DNA from: Clostridium sp.
GTDB lineage: Bacteria; Bacillota; Clostridia; Lachnospirales; Lachnospiraceae
Direction of reading: 5' to 3'
DNA length: 37,502 nucleotides
NCBI GenBank assembly: GCA_023664605.1
Contig: JAMPFF010000026.1
Span: 1 to 37,502 of the forward strand
In this document: positions 13,192-27,448 of the stretch, one piece after another
Numbering within the stretch: the first letter of the stretch is position 1
How the letters are laid out: each line of letters begins with the position of its first letter
Translations under genes and position numbers: made by a program
The notes under the pieces: model-generated
Told to the model about the DNA's origin: nothing
Databases searched by the model: none
Seen by the model: the letters and a program-made list of their open reading frames with translations, nothing else

Positions 13192-13734
13192 TTACCATCG
13201 CGCAAGAAGTTTTTTTACTTCCTTACACCATTCCAAATATGTCTGATAGGTTTTTATCCCAAACTCAACCGTAAGCAGATAATATTTATGTGCAGTATCT
13301 TCATTCAGGCATTTATTTAGGACTGTTTCCGCCTGTAACAGATATGGCAGTTCTCTTTCAATTTTCCTTTCAAACGCTTCAATATGAACAAGCGCCTGTT
13401 CTTCGCCTTTCTCATTTCCGAAAAATAATTTTAACAATGTTTCATAACGAAGCTCGTCTTTTTCAATAGGCAGTGACAGCCATTTTTTCAAATAGTCACG
13501 CCCATTTTCTGTTATGGTATAGATTAGTTTATTTCTTTTGCTGTTTGTATCTTTTCTTTTCACAGCAAGACCACGATTAACCAAATCATTTAAGGCGGGA
13601 TATATGCTGCCATAGCTCGCACTCCAAAAAAATTTAAGAGTGGTATCCATTCGCTTTTTTATTTCATATCCGGTTAATTCTTCATGGCTTAGTAATCCTA
13701 AAATTACACAATCAATCTTCTTTTCGTTTGCCAT
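13192..13734 (-). CDS. PadR-family transcriptional regulator
   Basis: A 180-residue regulator. The N-terminal winged helix carries PadR hallmarks: ILGLLSHEELTGYEIKKRM, SYGSIYPALNDLVNRGLA and LIYTITENGRDYLKKWL. A helical C-terminal dimerisation domain (about 95-180) follows, as in the longer PadR group (Vinculin-type AphA-like). I chose ATG 13734 since AAGGA lies 8 bases before it; ATG 13740 is too close. Its start overlaps the end of the Fe-S protein gene by 23 bases, so both come from the promoter at 14518-14546. That promoter carries a 31-bp palindrome, the obvious target for autoregulation. Ligand unknown. Confidence 0.9.
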   Translation of the reverse strand: MANEKKIDCVILGLLSHEELTGYEIKKRMDTTLKFFWSASYGSIYPALNDLVNRGLAVKRKDTNSKRNKLIYTITENGRDYLKKWLSLPIEKDELRYETLLKLFFGNEKGEEQALVHIEAFERKIERELPYLLQAETVLNKCLNEDTAHKYYLLTVEFGIKTYQTYLEWCKEVKKLLARW

Positions 13735-14476
13735 TACCATTTTCCTTTCTTTCTATCATTCCATAAGACAGAACATTTTCAGGACAGCTATCAACGCAGG
13801 CGCCGCATTGAATACATTCCAGGTTACCGATTATTCCGCATTTTGTTTCACTCATTACCTCAATTCCCATAGGACAAACCTTGTTACATTTACCGCAGGA
13901 TATACAATTATCTATTCTGCCTGCCTCAATGTGTATCCCCGGTAAATGTAAAAGTCTGCGGAGTTTAATCCCTAATGCCATGAATGGAGCCATCCAACAA
14001 AGATAATGACACAACGCTCTCTTTCCAAACAGGACAGAGGGTATAAAAATCAAGCATACAATACCGTAATAAATAATGTAACTCTGAATAGAGGAAACAG
14101 AAATACCATTTTCTGTTTCAAATAAAAAATCTATTCTAACTATTTTCCCTTTTTGAAAATAGCAAAGTATCACTAATGATAACCAAATTATCCATATTAT
14201 GTACTTAATATAGTTTCGCAGTCCTTGTTTTGGCTGCCTCTCATTAACCAAAAAAGCACACTCTTGTAACCCTCCTGCCGGACAAAGGTACGCACAAAAT
14301 AATCTTCCAAATGGGATGGAAAGGAAAAACATCAACACAAAAACAATAAAACTTCCATTGATTATTCCATTCAATCCTGCGTTTATGATTAAGGCGGGGC
14401 TAAAATAATATAGTGTGACAGGAAACAGGAGCAATGATGTGATAAGCGACAGCTTTCTTATTTGTTGTCTTTTCAT
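13712..14476 (-). CDS. Membrane Fe-S protein of the NapH/NosR/YccM type (two 4Fe-4S clusters)
   Basis: A 254-residue protein with about five membrane segments (about 12-32, 35-55, 88-108, 130-150, 160-178) and a C-terminal ferredoxin domain on the cytoplasmic side. The first loop carries the family motif FCAYLCPAGGLQE. The C-terminus has two complete 4Fe-4S sets, CISCGKCNKVCP (about 191-202) and CIQCGACVDSCP (about 220-231). Such proteins pass electrons between a membrane donor and a periplasmic or cytoplasmic reductase. The partner is not encoded nearby, so the pathway cannot be named. ATG 14476 has AGGAGG five bases upstream. It is first in an operon with the PadR regulator. Confidence 0.88.
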   Translation of the reverse strand: MKRQQIRKLSLITSLLLFPVTLYYFSPALIINAGLNGIINGSFIVFVLMFFLSIPFGRLFCAYLCPAGGLQECAFLVNERQPKQGLRNYIKYIIWIIWLSLVILCYFQKGKIVRIDFLFETENGISVSSIQSYIIYYGIVCLIFIPSVLFGKRALCHYLCWMAPFMALGIKLRRLLHLPGIHIEAGRIDNCISCGKCNKVCPMGIEVMSETKCGIIGNLECIQCGACVDSCPENVLSYGMIERKENGNGKRKED

Positions 14477-14562: not shown

Positions 14563-17178
14563 TCAACCATTATCTTTAAAAACAGGTTCTATATATTCCC
14601 CAGCCCCGTCTGTACTGACCGCAAAATGCAGATGCGCTCCCGTGGAACGCCCCGTGCTTCCCACTGTGGCTATTCTTTGTCCGGCTGTGACGCTTTCTCC
14701 TTTCGACACCAGAATATCCTGGCACGCCGCATAGTGCGTATATTCTCCGTATTGCGCATGATATACGATGACATAATTCCCGTTTTCAGCGTCATATCCG
14801 GTCTGATAGACTGTGCCGTCCGCCGCGGCGACAATATCCGCCCCCGCCTGTGCCGCCAAGTCTACGCCGTTATGCTTTCTTACCTCGTTCGTTATCGGAT
14901 TGATGCGCTCGCTAAACGTATCGGAAATTCTGGTATAGGACGGACAGGGATTGCCATATGCCGCATCGCTTACTAACACCGCATCCGTCCGGTTTTGTAT
15001 GGCGTTTTGCATATCGTTTTGTATGATGGGATTCACATAATCGGTTTCTATTGCCGCCTCCCCCAGACTGAACTTTCTTTCTCCAAACTGCCCGCACGAT
15101 ACCTGAAAAGAGATAAACGGCAGTCCCCGGTACCAAATCTCATCCGTATTATCAAAGCTGACGCCTGCGGCTATCAACAGTTTTAAATCATCCTCGTCCG
15201 CGCCAAGTTCCCAGCCGACCATGGAAGCATTTAAGAAAACATCTTTTACCGTTGACACATCCGCCACAAAACCGGCGGCGTCTATTTCACCGATTCTCTC
15301 CCCATTGTCATAAACGGCAATCACGGAGCTTTTATCCGCTTTCGATTCCATAGAAAAACGCAATCTTTCATTTATCTGCTCCATATAGCTTTGCGCCTCA
15401 AACTGATACATTTCAACCGTTCCCGTATCATGGCGGTCGCATAAATATAAATTCCATACTTCCGTATCGGAAGTATTCTCCGCTATCATCTTAACGGCAA
15501 AGGTGCGCGCCTTATTATCCTGCGTCTTTTCATAGACACGGATATTCTCATCCCATCCGTGCATCCCCGATACCAGCCATGGCTCGTCAAAATCAGCGGC
15601 GTCATCCCCGATAAGAATTTTGACGCCCCTGCATCCGTACTCTTTTGTATACATACCGTAGACGCTAATATCGACGCCGTCCGCGCCCTCCATTTTTTCC
15701 AAAAGATAAATGCCCTCTTCCAGCGCATTTTCGCCCTCTGCATAATACGCCTGCACATAATCGTCCAACATTTTTGTCTCATCATAAGCAGCAAGCATTT
15801 TCAGCACCGCCGCAAACTCCGCTTCCGCCTGCGCTTTCGCCGCCAGTTCCCGCTGCGCCTCCTGCACTGTTTCCTCTTCTTTTTGTAATTCCTGCTTCAG
15901 CGCATCCAACCGCGCCTGTGCGTCCATCTGTGCCTGTATATCATTTAACTTTTCCATGTCTGCTCCGTCCGCCGTCTGCGCCAAATCCTGCGGCGCGCTA
16001 TCCGCCAATATGCCCTCGTCTGTATTCTGCGTATTGTTCCCGCCTGACGCATTATCCGCTTTCCCTGAAAAAGTAATCATGACAGCTCCTACGGCAAGCA
16101 GGACAACAATCCCCGCCGCCAATGCCGCATATTTACGTTTTTCGGCAATCTGAGAGATTCTTTCCCGGATGCCTTTTTCTGCGCCGCTCATAGTAGAGAC
16201 AAATCCTATCCTGTTTCTTTCCTGTCCTTTTACGGCAATCAGACGCAGAAGCGTCCTGCCGTATGCGATTCTTTCCTCCTCGCCCAACAGACGGATGGAC
16301 GCTTCATCACAAGCAAGTTCGCTGTCCTGCTTGGAAGCATAAGCCGCCGCCCATACAAGCGGATGGAACCAATAAACAACCGTCAGAACGCACCTGACAA
16401 CCACCCACAGTAAATCGCCTTGCCTATAGTGGCAGTATTCATGCACGAGAATATGCTGCAATCTTTTTTCATCCGCCGCCATCTCCTTTGTCAGATAGAT
16501 GTTTCGTCCGCATAGACAAGGCGAAGGAAGTCCTTTGACCGTATAGACGGAAAGCGTATGATATTTTTTCATGCCTTTTAACGGCTTTCTGTTACGATAC
16601 AGATACCGCCGCCATTTTATCTGATAAAAAAGCATATAACCGCCGCACAAAACCATGCCCGCAATCCAGACGATACGCAGGATGCCTGACAGCCGCTTTA
16701 CATGGGCTGCGGTAAAAAAAGCTGCCGCCTGTGATTCCTCCGGCGTCGTCGGCATTGATACCTTGCTGTCAATAGCAGTATCAGCGTTATATGCACCGTC
16801 TCTGCCTGCTCCTGCGCCGCTCTGGTCTATCTCCGCATCTTTTGCATATTCACCGCCCTGAGCTGTTTCCGCATCACCTGTATTTATTCCCGCGCCGCTT
16901 ATTCCTATCTCCGTACCGCTTCCGTCTGTATCTGCTCTATCCTGCTGCCACAGCGCGCTTTCACTCTCCGCCGACGCCTCGTAACTGCTCATGCCATCCG
17001 GCAGATAATTTAAAATGCCGAAGCCGCTGTTCCATAAAGGCACGGGAAGAATAAGCCTTACCGCTACGGGAAGCCAGAGCGCATACTGTAACATCGGATG
17101 GATTTTTCCTTTTGTAAAAAACCGTATCAGAAAAATAGCCGTCATCAAAATAGAAGAAGTAATTACTATATCTCTCAT
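14563..17178 (-). CDS. M56 (BlaR1-type) membrane protease fused to an M23 peptidoglycan endopeptidase
   Basis: An 871-residue protein combining a signalling protease and a cell-wall enzyme. Residues 1-45 hold two membrane segments, then a long Gly/Ala/Asp-rich loop (about 60-155), another segment (about 165-187), and the M56 metalloprotease with HEYCH at 246-250 plus DSELACDEA at about 285-293 as the third zinc ligand. A membrane segment at 352-371 leads outside the cell. There follow a coiled coil (about 408-455), a region of unknown fold (about 455-740), and an M23/LytM domain (about 743-871) with all ligands: His769 and Asp773 (HNGVD), His815, and HLHF at 849-852. In BlaR1 the outer sensor is a penicillin-binding domain; here M23 sits in that place. 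Its start overlaps the BlaI stop (ATGA), giving a classic repressor-protease pair. Confidence 0.85.
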   Translation of the reverse strand: MRDIVITSSILMTAIFLIRFFTKGKIHPMLQYALWLPVAVRLILPVPLWNSGFGILNYLPDGMSSYEASAESESALWQQDRADTDGSGTEIGISGAGINTGDAETAQGGEYAKDAEIDQSGAGAGRDGAYNADTAIDSKVSMPTTPEESQAAAFFTAAHVKRLSGILRIVWIAGMVLCGGYMLFYQIKWRRYLYRNRKPLKGMKKYHTLSVYTVKGLPSPCLCGRNIYLTKEMAADEKRLQHILVHEYCHYRQGDLLWVVVRCVLTVVYWFHPLVWAAAYASKQDSELACDEASIRLLGEEERIAYGRTLLRLIAVKGQERNRIGFVSTMSGAEKGIRERISQIAEKRKYAALAAGIVVLLAVGAVMITFSGKADNASGGNNTQNTDEGILADSAPQDLAQTADGADMEKLNDIQAQMDAQARLDALKQELQKEEETVQEAQRELAAKAQAEAEFAAVLKMLAAYDETKMLDDYVQAYYAEGENALEEGIYLLEKMEGADGVDISVYGMYTKEYGCRGVKILIGDDAADFDEPWLVSGMHGWDENIRVYEKTQDNKARTFAVKMIAENTSDTEVWNLYLCDRHDTGTVEMYQFEAQSYMEQINERLRFSMESKADKSSVIAVYDNGERIGEIDAAGFVADVSTVKDVFLNASMVGWELGADEDDLKLLIAAGVSFDNTDEIWYRGLPFISFQVSCGQFGERKFSLGEAAIETDYVNPIIQNDMQNAIQNRTDAVLVSDAAYGNPCPSYTRISDTFSERINPITNEVRKHNGVDLAAQAGADIVAAADGTVYQTGYDAENGNYVIVYHAQYGEYTHYAACQDILVSKGESVTAGQRIATVGSTGRSTGAHLHFAVSTDGAGEYIEPVFKDNG

Positions 17179-17549
17179 AGCCCGTCCTCCTCCGCTTTTT
17201 TCAAAATATCATAAAGTTCGCTAATCTCTTCTTTGGACAACGCCTTTTTTTCTACCATGGTATTTAACATCAATCCCAAACGCCCGTCGAATACCTTGTC
17301 CAGAAATTCCTCCGTCTCCTGCAGTACCGCCTCCGTCTTTTCGACATCGGGATAGTAGAGCTTGGCGCGCTCTCCTTCTTCATAGTGAATCGCGCCCTTT
17401 TCCTCCATCCGGCGCAAAAAAGTCATAACGGTATGTTTCGTCCATCCCGTCGTATCCTTAAAATGAGCCGTTATCTGCATCATTGTCTGCGGCGCGCTCT
17501 CCCATAACAGATTCATTACTTTCCATTCCGCTTCCGAAAGTTTTATCAT
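17175..17549 (-). CDS. BlaI/MecI-family transcriptional repressor
   Basis: A 124-residue repressor of the usual BlaI length. It has a winged helix (MIKLSEAEWKVMNLLW, TTGWTKHTVMTFLRRMEEKGAIHYEEGERAKLYY) and a C-terminal dimer helix region (about 75-124). In the family, repression is lifted when the partner M56 protease cleaves the repressor. I chose ATG 17549 because AAAGGAG lies eight bases upstream; an earlier ATG at 17582 has no ribosome site. It shares an ATGA overlap with the M56-M23 gene. The promoter upstream is flanked by two related dyads (17635-17655 and 17674-17694). Confidence 0.93.
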   Translation of the reverse strand: MIKLSEAEWKVMNLLWESAPQTMMQITAHFKDTTGWTKHTVMTFLRRMEEKGAIHYEEGERAKLYYPDVEKTEAVLQETEEFLDKVFDGRLGLMLNTMVEKKALSKEEISELYDILKKAEEDGL

Positions 17550-17634
17550 TGTTTTTTCTCCTTTGTTCATAATACTTATCAACCCCTTTTATCGCCTTGG
17601 CATGGATTGTATATGCTGCCCGTACATAGCGCAA

Positions 17635-17694
17635 AAGGTTGACAAACGACTACCTGCCATTACTATAACGCTTAGGTAGTCGCTTGTCAACCTT
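17635..17694 (-). promoter_or_regulatory. Paired operator dyads flanking the blaI promoter
   Basis: Two 21-base arms (17635-17655 and 17674-17694) form an inverted repeat with one mismatch. Each arm is itself an imperfect dyad of the form AGGTwGwC-N4-GwCwACCT. One covers the -35 box and the other the predicted start point. This fits two repressor dimers, although the core differs from the TACA/TGTA dyad of staphylococcal BlaI and MecI. The same sequence would form a long RNA hairpin followed by TTTT, so it may also terminate transcripts from the HD gene. Confidence 0.7.
17662..17690 (-). promoter_or_regulatory. Promoter of the blaI/M56-M23 operon
   Basis: TTGACA (17690-17685) with a 17-base spacer and TATAGT (17667-17662) on the minus strand. 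The predicted start near 17655 gives a leader of about 105 bases. Confidence 0.75.
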
Positions 17695-18441: not shown

Positions 18442-19155
18442 TTAGTCCAAAATCGGCCAATGATTCAGGCAGGGCGGCAAGTGCATCATATGATGATTTG
18501 TCATGGGAGTTAAAATCATGCCGCCCCTTGTCAATCTCCCCCAAAAAACCAACAGCCACACAGAGCGAAAATCTGTAGTCACACCGCCCTCTTCCAATAT
18601 TCTCATGACCCATTCTTCAGGAACCATAGATTGTATCTGCTTCAATGTCAGACTTTCCAATATGCTGCGCGTATTTTTTCCTACGGTAATCATATAATCA
18701 CAAAGCGCAAGAATATTTATCTTTTTTCCAAACTCTACCACTTCATCAAATTCCAGTGCATTTCCGGTATCTGTAATGGAAGCGCCGATTTTTTTCTGCC
18801 ACTTTGCATTGAAAATCTGATTTTGATTTACCATTAACATATTGCTTACAATATCTTCAATGCGGTATGTATGCCAAAACTGCCAACACATAGGAACTTT
18901 TCTTGTTCCTGCATAATGCAAATCCACATAACCATTTTCTCTGGGTACTATCGCGTTTTGATTTCCTTGCAGCATATACTCCAAAACATAATCTGCTATC
19001 GTTTTTTCACATCCTCCGGATATTTCAGCAGGGTGTACCATAGCATGGACTTCCAATGTCAATTTTCTTATATTTTCAATGTCCGTTCCCTTTAAAGCCT
19101 TTTTTAATTCATTCTGTTTTTCTCTGATTGGTATCACTAATTCTTCTTTTTTCAT
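18442..19155 (-). CDS. DinB-fold protein, function unknown
   Basis: A 237-residue protein with the helical DinB/YfiT-type pattern. The metal-binding His residues fall in EVHAMVHPAE (about 36-45), in the WQFWHTYRIEDIVSNML helix (about 94-110, the usual H-x-x-D motif) and in NHHMMHLP near the C-terminus. DinB-like proteins include thiol-dependent S-transferases and enzymes of small-molecule modification; none can be named here. The ribosome site is GGAAAGGA, 11-14 bases before the ATG. It is followed by the HD gene and preceded by the WYL regulator on the same strand, 60 bases away; that regulator may control it. Confidence 0.65.
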   Translation of the reverse strand: MKKEELVIPIREKQNELKKALKGTDIENIRKLTLEVHAMVHPAEISGGCEKTIADYVLEYMLQGNQNAIVPRENGYVDLHYAGTRKVPMCWQFWHTYRIEDIVSNMLMVNQNQIFNAKWQKKIGASITDTGNALEFDEVVEFGKKINILALCDYMITVGKNTRSILESLTLKQIQSMVPEEWVMRILEEGGVTTDFRSVWLLVFWGRLTRGGMILTPMTNHHMMHLPPCLNHWPILD

Positions 19156-26377: not shown

Positions 26378-27448
26378 TTAGATATCTTTGTTGTCTTTTT
26401 CATTATGTGTGTCAATTTTATGCCTAATCTCCTGCATCTGATAATCTAAAAGTCCAATGGAATCCGCACAGGCTTTTAGCTGCTTTACAATCGCCTCCGC
26501 GTCTTCCACATCTTTTTTATATTTTAACTTATGTTCCAGGCTTGCCCAAAAATCCATGGCAATCGTCCGAAACTGCACTTCCACTTTCCTGTACTTTTTT
26601 TCATCGGACAAAAAAATCGGAATACTGACGATTAAGTGAAGGCTCCGGTATCCGTTGGGCTTGGGATTTTTGATATAATCCTTTTCTTTCACCAGAATGA
26701 TATCGTCCTGTCTGACAAGGAAACTCGCCAGTCTATAGATATCGTCCGGAAAAGAACAGATAACGCGTACGCCCGCCACATCCGCTAAGTGTTTTTCTAC
26801 ATTGTCAACGGTAATCGAATATCCTTTGCGCTGTAACTTTTCATAAATGCTCTCGGGAGACTTTAATCTGCTCTTAATCGACTCAAATGGATTGCGGTTA
26901 TATGCCCGGGAAAATTCCTCGTTCAACACCTTTAATTTTGTCTCAATCTCCATAATCGCGCAGCGATACTCCATCATCAAATGGTTAAAAGACTCTGCGC
27001 CTCTTAGTTTCTCCGCCTGCATTTCTATAATCTGCGACTGTTTTTTGACTTTCAACTCCAGTCTGTTCTTATAGGCAAACAGGTCTACCGTATTCCTTAT
27101 CCTGTTTTTTACGACAGACGTTTCAAAGGGCTTATGGATAAAATCCAAAACCCCCAAAGAAAAGCACTGATTTTCAATATCCACCGCATTCTCGCTGCTG
27201 ATGACAAGCACCGGGATTTTATTTAACCATCCGTTTTTTCTAAGCGTCTCAATGACCGCAAACCCATCCATCCTCGGCATCTGCAAATCCAGAATGAGCG
27301 CGGACGTCTCTTCCAGAAATTCCTGTAGTTTATCCAGCGCCTCTATGCCGTCTTTTGCAGTATCCACCAAATATTCATCTTTCAGCATCTCGCGCAGTAT
27401 CTCACGGTTTACCTCCGCGTCATCCGCGACCAGTATTCTGCTTTGCAT
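26378..27448 (-). CDS. Response-regulator receiver fused to a RelQ-type (p)ppGpp synthetase
   Basis: A 356-residue two-domain protein. Residues 1-125 form a receiver with acidic pocket Asp9/Asp10, phospho-acceptor Asp54 (LILDLQMP), Ser84 and Lys106 (FIHKPF). A coiled coil (about 125-160) leads to a small alarmone synthetase domain (about 175-335). This has IKSRLKSPESIYEKLQRKG, LADVAGVRVICSFPDDIYRLASFL, KDYIKNPKPNGYRSLHLIV and KVEVQFRTIAMDFWASLEHKLKYK, in the order and spacing of RelQ/YjbM. No hydrolase HD domain is present. So alarmone synthesis appears to be under two-component phosphorylation control. No histidine kinase is in the window. It may head a unit with the debranching enzyme and trpCFBA. 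Confidence 0.9.
   Translation of the reverse strand: MQSRILVADDAEVNREILREMLKDEYLVDTAKDGIEALDKLQEFLEETSALILDLQMPRMDGFAVIETLRKNGWLNKIPVLVISSENAVDIENQCFSLGVLDFIHKPFETSVVKNRIRNTVDLFAYKNRLELKVKKQSQIIEMQAEKLRGAESFNHLMMEYRCAIMEIETKLKVLNEEFSRAYNRNPFESIKSRLKSPESIYEKLQRKGYSITVDNVEKHLADVAGVRVICSFPDDIYRLASFLVRQDDIILVKEKDYIKNPKPNGYRSLHLIVSIPIFLSDEKKYRKVEVQFRTIAMDFWASLEHKLKYKKDVEDAEAIVKQLKACADSIGLLDYQMQEIRHKIDTHNEKDNKDI

Follow-up and report, generated by a model that had tools for sequence, protein, structure and literature searches.

An M56 signalling protease carrying a substituted M23 domain, a candidate peptidoglycan receptor in Clostridium sp.

Background

Cleavage of the repressors BlaI and MecI by an M56 protease is established for the receptors BlaR1 and MecR1, and BlaR1 too has a wall-enzyme fold for its sensor, one that keeps hold of the ligand. 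The receptor gene described here lies in a 37,502-nucleotide stretch of a Clostridium sp. genome (assembly GCA_023664605.1, contig JAMPFF010000026.1, positions 1 to 37,502 of the forward strand; hereafter the window). It shares with BlaR1 and MecR1 an M56 protease part, an adjoining upstream blaI gene, an operator over the shared promoter and a C-terminal part placed outside the membrane by homology, and as in BlaR1 a wall-enzyme fold forms that outer part. It differs from both in having no penicillin-binding sensor, in the place of which stand a domain that we call MID and an M23 domain of the peptidoglycan endopeptidase type, and in a much longer loop L2; the NCBIfam model blaR1_generic gives the protein 96.2 bits against a cut-off of 400, with its best stretch at residues 235-368. 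The case is of interest because of this parallel with BlaR1 in the use of a wall-enzyme fold. On balance, we regard the protein as a BlaR1-type signalling protease whose non-penicillin sensor probably consists of MID and an M23 domain that binds peptidoglycan without cutting it.

The combination of M56 with M23 has been published as a rare architecture, grouped with other M23 proteins that carry a further catalytic domain and together make up less than 1% of hits (Razew et al. 2022, PMC9662197). The proteins named there have the same two domains, and the available portion of that paper gives neither a function nor a residue audit nor MID for them. No study of the architecture was found in the accessible open-access literature; among the papers found, only that one was seen to name it. 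New in the present analysis are MID, which belongs to no known family, the recurrent loss of a single catalytic His with the zinc ligands kept, and a series of intact, blunted and absent M23 domains at one and the same locus.

Results and discussion

Domain architecture and membrane topology

The receptor gene (P0001; 14563..17178, minus strand, as are the receptor features given below) is a single open frame of 871 amino acids, the ATG start of which overlaps the blaI stop as ATGA, while the plus-strand frame across the same positions is interrupted by stops; its carrier is a gut bacterium. A preliminary description, made from the sequence alone, had placed an M56 and an M23 domain in this one chain, and both are recovered by Pfam far above their cut-offs: Peptidase_M56 (PF05569) with E 2.3e-40 and Peptidase_M23 (PF01551) with E 1.7e-26 at residues 768-858. 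The M56 transmembrane and metalloprotease part covers residues 1-375 (16054..17178) and reaches 143.6 bits as two joined stretches, the best being residues 134-344 and the other a separate N-terminal one. The zinc site of the M56 family, HExxH with a downstream Glu, is present as HEYCH at residues 246-250 (16429..16443) and Glu287 in ELACD, the latter taken as third ligand by comparison with MecR1 (HE205LSH, E245KVCD; PMC6925264).

A charged, probably coiled-coil linker at about residues 410-463 (15790..15951), read from the letters alone, overlaps the start of MID (residues 427-716; 15031..15900), which was delimited with a profile built in this analysis, and the M23 domain of the LytM/MepM/ShyA type follows at residues 739-868 (14575..14964), with ShyA as best match in the Protein Data Bank (PDB; E 1.7e-20). 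MID, about 290 residues between M56 and M23, has no significant Pfam match (best E 0.032, below cut-off) and no counterpart among PDB sequences at E up to 1, and no penicillin-binding sensor was detected in the receptor by Pfam at E up to 1; the unfamiliar domain in the outer part and the missing beta-lactam sensor had both been anticipated in the preliminary description. MID was also considered as a form of DUF4825, the domain of a paralogue in the same genome (L200), and this was rejected for lack of similarity (probability 0.5%). That genome encodes five BlaI proteins and six M56 proteins (eight profile matches, two of them N-terminal pieces of listed proteins); four of the other five M56 proteins were scanned (all but C11, 391 amino acids), and none of the four has an M23 or penicillin-binding domain, one being the DUF4825 protein. 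The BlaI/M56 pairs seen in this analysis come without a penicillin sensor.

Transmembrane helices (TM) were called with a 19-residue hydropathy window at residues 4-22, 166-184 and 352-370, and a further hydrophobic stretch (257-275) lies inside the protease part. The last helix (352-370; 16069..16125) has a hydropathy of 2.6, and the part downstream of it is predicted to be extracytoplasmic. Between TM2 and TM3, a low-complexity loop of about 110 residues rich in Ala, Gly, Ser and Asp (residues 51-162; 16693..17028) takes the position of loop L2 of BlaR1 and MecR1, which is extracellular in MecR1 (PMC6925264) and binds the sensor domain in both. Residues 188-256 and 276-351 together hold 29 Lys/Arg and 16 Asp/Glu, and residues 371-871 hold 38 and 88, respectively. 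Because of this charge bias and the mapped topology of MecR1 (PMC6925264), the protease part is predicted to face the inside and the M23 part the outside of the membrane.

The M23 active site

The zinc of M23 peptidases is held by H(x)nD together with the later His of HxH, and a role in activating water has been proposed for two other His, one lying some 30 residues ahead of HxH (LytM His260) and the other being the first His of HxH (PMC9662197). The receptor has all three zinc ligands (His769, Asp773, His851) together with the first His of HxH, His849, which the preliminary description had omitted. It had proposed a complete catalytic site of His769, Asp773, His815 and His851, and here the alignments disagree, for the canonical catalytic position, that of LytM His260, is occupied by Ala818 (14725..14727), as judged from PDB alignments and from relatives. 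The catalytic His stands opposite Ala818 in alignments to five chains of four proteins (ShyA twice, TagE, 2gu1, 6muk), and the distance to HxH is 31 residues from the catalytic His of ShyA, 31 from Ala818 and 34 from His815. Among 55 fused relatives, position 815 holds Tyr in 50 and His in five. His815 (14734..14736) was rejected as the catalytic residue on the grounds of these alignments, the 31-residue spacing and the prevailing Tyr; it occurs in two of the 12 proteins without His at 818, namely this receptor and L061.

With Ala818 for the first water-activating His and only His849 kept, the M23 domain of the receptor is probably impaired in catalysis, and for the same reason the wall cutting that had been suggested for this protein is unsupported. 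The domain shares fold, zinc ligands and the N-terminal motif FxxRxxPxTxxxxxHNGxD with the DD-endopeptidases of the MepM/ShyA type, and differs from them by Ala818 and by its place in a receptor. Loss of catalytic residues is the mark of degenerate LytM domains, and it is found here.

Catalytic residues among fused relatives

All 77 genomes of the genus that were searched match some part of the receptor. A first set of 57 genus loci and three own-genome loci was fetched, from which the M56, MID and M23 profiles used to classify frames were built, and then 20 more were added (17 from the genus, two from other genera and one from the own genome). A further group of loci was found by patterns with HEYxH or HLHFA, which biases the share of this group in both the fused and the stand-alone set towards intact His849 and His851. 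The fetched genus loci contain 44 fusions, all of which carry His769 and Asp773; 43 carry His851, 36 a His at 818 and 34 a His at 849. When the loci found by pattern are included, 55 unique fused M23 domains are obtained, of which 32 are complete, 12 lack His818 (replaced by Cys in six, Ala in three, Asn in two and Gly in one), ten lack His849 (Phe in five, Cys in two, and Met, Leu or Val) and one has Cys for His851.

For comparison, 80 stand-alone M23 domains, close relatives of the fused one, were used, and a 97% identity filter left 53 fused and 78 stand-alone domains. A single catalytic His is lost in 22 of the 53 fused domains and in none of the 78 stand-alone ones, a contrast for which the Fisher value (p 8.9e-11) is an overstatement because the rows are related, the tree counts being the safer measure. 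None of the 53 has lost both catalytic His, any of the five active-site residues is missing in 23 of 53 fused against one of 78 stand-alone domains, and the zinc ligands stay nearly fixed in the fusions (His769 53/53, Asp773 53/53, His851 52/53). When the 28 columns kept in at least 97% of the stand-alone domains are ranked by their relaxation in the fusions, 818 comes third and 849 fifth; twelve columns, including those of His769 and Asp773, are invariant in all 53. Of the 111 rows of one search, only a minority of the weaker ones entered the residue audit.

Two observations stand beside these counts. Position 819, next to the catalytic His position, is Cys in 55 of 55 fused and in 23 of 80 stand-alone domains. 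The own genome has six other M23 domains: L049-L051 are complete, several residues are missing from L053 and L054 (weak matches from other subfamilies), and no alignment was obtained for L055; only L050 (as L118) belongs to the stand-alone set.

Trees, fusion origin and selection

On a tree of the M56 part, from which M23 columns were absent, the catalytic state requires at least 12 changes, M23 presence at least 10 and MID presence at least five, and the counts are the same after two rows cut by contig ends and two fragment rows are left out. The M23 tree, which has few columns and 102 rows (the 55 fused domains and 47 out of the 80 stand-alone ones), also gives 12 changes of catalytic state; the trees are of a 'quick' type with many unresolved forks. 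On the M23 tree the fused label changes twice at the least, and dropping any single fused row never brings this to one, which fits one or two fusion events. One fusion (L272) comes from a record titled Oscillibacter and, if the bin is clean, lies outside Lachnospiraceae. In a sample of 299 genomes of the family, all but four of the strong fused-M23 matches listed lie in frames below 540 amino acids, and in a plasmid search no record contained a region that spans 80% of the receptor protein.

Between this receptor and its nearest relative (L061, 87% identical), both with Ala818, the M23 domain shows dN 0.042 and dS 0.338, and since dN/dS is thus 0.124, the degraded M23 of this protein is still under constraint. 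Eight pairs, each of only 126-130 codons, range from 0.03 to 0.36, with 0.137 and 0.169 where one member has lost a His. A decaying, functionless relic would explain why residues, and even the entire domain, are so often lost and would suit the highest ratio, 0.364 for the pair L062/L064 (both Cys818; dS only 0.09). Set against it are the three low ratios just given, the open frames, and the zinc ligands and several glycines that are invariant in 53 of 53 domains, and we consider this account, which was already disfavoured, very improbable.

One locus with intact, blunted and absent M23 domains

Downstream of the receptor, mecA (ClpC adaptor type, PF05389), a gene for a DEAD-box helicase and, on the other strand, ygjP each occur in 39 of the 58 loci that were compared. 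The 39 syntenic, mecA-flanked loci, one per species, comprise 18 without M23, 14 with a degraded M23 (13 having lost a catalytic His and one a zinc ligand) and seven with an intact one. In 35 of the 39 the mecA start is 59-288 bases from the receptor; in the window a 4Fe-4S protein and a PadR regulator (13192-14476, minus strand) stand between the two. All 76 full M56 proteins keep HExxH (a 77th row is a fragment), and blaI is upstream in 125 of 125 rows, duplicates between collections included. Since M23 is absent or degraded at so many syntenic loci while HExxH and blaI stay, the signalling half is nearly constant and the M23 half optional, and for the same reason M23 catalysis is, on the sequence evidence, not the core of the system; M23 binding may be. 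The preliminary description had named the loss of M23 residues in close homologues with unchanged signalling as evidence against its proposal, and at the sequence level such loss, with the signalling parts kept, is what these loci present.

The M23-less orthologues were also considered as assembly artefacts. This was rejected, as only two (L088, L110) of 31 M23-less rows with MID are cut by contig ends; both lie outside the 39 syntenic loci, and dropping them with the two fragment rows leaves the tree counts unchanged. A tblastn search of the 211 to 1500 bases available downstream of the M23-less rows other than L088 and L110 detected no remnant of M23.

At the syntenic loci MID is the steadier companion, present in 37 of 39 against 21 of 39 for M23, and this, like the loss of M23 without remnants, would be expected if MID alone were the sensor and M23 a wall anchor or spacer that is cheap to lose. 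A non-redundant set of 95 M56 proteins (200 bits or more to our M56 profile) contains 27 with MID only (two cut by contig ends), 25 with MID and M23, 24 with M23 only and 19 with neither; the 24 with M23 and no MID, together with purifying selection on M23 after the His loss, make this account rather doubtful.

A different role is suggested by degenerate M23 and LytM proteins such as EnvC, NlpD and SpoIIQ, which have the M23 fold without the full catalytic set, SpoIIQ being a degenerate M23 protein in a docking role. Published degenerate M23 folds mostly serve protein-protein interactions (PMC9662197), and the M23 domain here could likewise be a protein-docking hub whose partner is an amidase, the divisome or a wall synthase rather than peptidoglycan. 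The published examples lack catalytic residues and/or zinc, whereas the fused domains keep their zinc ligands in 52-53 of 53 cases and have lost a catalytic His singly and many times. Moreover, the neighbours present in more than 25 of 58 loci (mecA, the DEAD-box helicase, ygjP and an opposite-strand frame that overlaps the helicase) offer no obvious outside partner, partner genes elsewhere not having been sought, and we judge docking unlikely.

A second clade of M56-M23 fusions has no MID (L117, L181-L183, L185-L190, L194-L197). The five M23 residues are complete in 11 of the 14, the GACTACC operator described below is absent from all of them, and TACATATGTA/TACATCTGTA boxes lie upstream of blaI in L117, L188 and L194. 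L256 and L257 are two M56 genes a short way apart on the same strand, one with a MID-like domain but without M23 and the next an M56-M23 fusion.

blaI, promoter and operator

The gene directly upstream of the receptor (P0002; 17175..17549, minus strand) encodes a BlaI/MecI-type repressor (Penicillinase_R, E 4.7e-29); its ATG at 17549 is preceded by an AAAGGAG box, and an alternative TTG lies upstream at 17582. A candidate blaI promoter, TTGACA-17-TATAGT (17662..17690, minus strand), matches 11 of 12 consensus positions. As the 3.6 kb scanned contain eight promoter-like sites against 5.6 in shuffles, this call relies on conservation in relatives. The promoter is spanned by a putative operator, a 21-bp inverted repeat without strand (17635..17694; arms 17635-17655 and 17674-17694) that is 95% complementary and has the half-site TTGACAANCGACTACC. 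The classical BlaI box TACANNTGTA has no exact match in the window, the operator being of the GACTACC type.

With one mismatch allowed in the half-site and two in the second arm, the operator was found in 53 of 56 fetched loci of the main clade (26 of 29 with M23, 27 of 27 without), and in none of 15 second-clade loci, two other loci and 74 reversed control strings; the main clade is defined by place in the tree, as sorting by profile score mixes in second-clade loci (53/63). Exact half-sites occur twice in the own genome, both at the blaI promoter, followed by one with one mismatch (C26) and 30 with two, a total of 33 against 90 for the reversed pattern. Because the exact half-sites occur only there, the receptor operon itself appears as the one output seen. 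Small regulons that include their own operons are also described for the Clostridium thermocellum repressors BlaI_0696 and BlaI_1845, whose half-sites, GTCTAT/GACTAT, resemble GACTACC (PMC8457756); the outer domains of their receptors are not described in the available portion of that paper.

An operator at the own promoter alone would also fit a bifunctional enzyme-sensor, in which wall cutting by M23, or what the cutting releases, drives signalling to BlaI; as all exact BlaI sites found lie on that promoter, the induced hydrolase would then be the receptor itself. The best PDB alignment, to the endopeptidase ShyA, agrees with such a role, as do the 30 of 53 fused M23 domains that keep all five active-site residues. 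Ala818 in this protein, the repeated losses of a catalytic His with zinc ligands kept and the complete absence of M23 from 18 of 39 syntenic loci point the other way, which leaves an enzyme-sensor decidedly unlikely.

A proposed model of wall sensing

In the non-cutting receptor that we favour, the M56 part (HEYCH and Glu287) would lie in the membrane facing the cytoplasm and, once activated, would cut BlaI; by analogy with BlaR1 and MecR1 and from the position of the operator, this cleavage would free the promoter of the blaI-receptor operon. Outside the membrane, MID would be the steadier sensory part, accompanied by the MepM/ShyA-type M23. As the zinc ligands and fold are kept and one water-activating His is lost at Ala818, M23 most likely binds without cutting, either holding cross-linked stem peptides or tethering the receptor to peptidoglycan. 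A change in wall occupancy or strain would then be relayed to the protease by way of MID and the last helix. Of the earlier proposal of a wall receptor that signals to BlaI, the receptor role stays plausible, in view of the M56 zinc site, the coupled blaI, the operator at the own promoter and an M23 domain placed outside by homology and charge; the cutting role is unsupported for this protein.

Several points weigh against this reading. The expected second helix (about residues 30-50) falls below the hydropathy threshold, and the third M56 ligand is Glu in 69 relatives and Asp in seven. The absence of M23 from 18 of the 39 syntenic loci implies that peptidoglycan binding by M23 is not required, and some of the 30 complete fused domains may still cut. 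In the fusions, the non-catalytic columns 827, 845 and 860 match the two catalytic His in their degree of relaxation, so relaxation is not confined to catalysis, and the ratio of the L062/L064 pair is on the same side. In the receptor itself, weak or shifted catalysis through the remaining His849 and through His815, near the lost His, is possible.

More broadly, and only tentatively, the family may represent a second BlaR1-like path, along which an M56 receptor recruited an M23 DD-endopeptidase and, by independent losses of single catalytic His in many lineages, with zinc and groove kept, turned it from a cutter into a sensor of endogenous peptidoglycan cross-links that holds its substrate and acts through BlaI. 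If M23 is indeed a sensor, such systems read the state of the wall and not a drug, which would bear on the origin of beta-lactam receptors. The natural orthologues at one locus, with intact, blunted or no M23, make the signalling role of a wall-enzyme domain directly testable.

Other genes in the window

Two further frames of the window are on the minus strand. A frame of 237 amino acids (18442-19155), between an HD-domain protein and a WYL regulator, has no Pfam match at E up to 0.001. The other, of 356 amino acids (26378-27448), is a fusion of a receiver and an alarmone synthetase; a response-regulator receiver domain (E 4.8e-22) forms its N-terminal part and a RelA/SpoT domain (E 8.7e-34) its C-terminal part.

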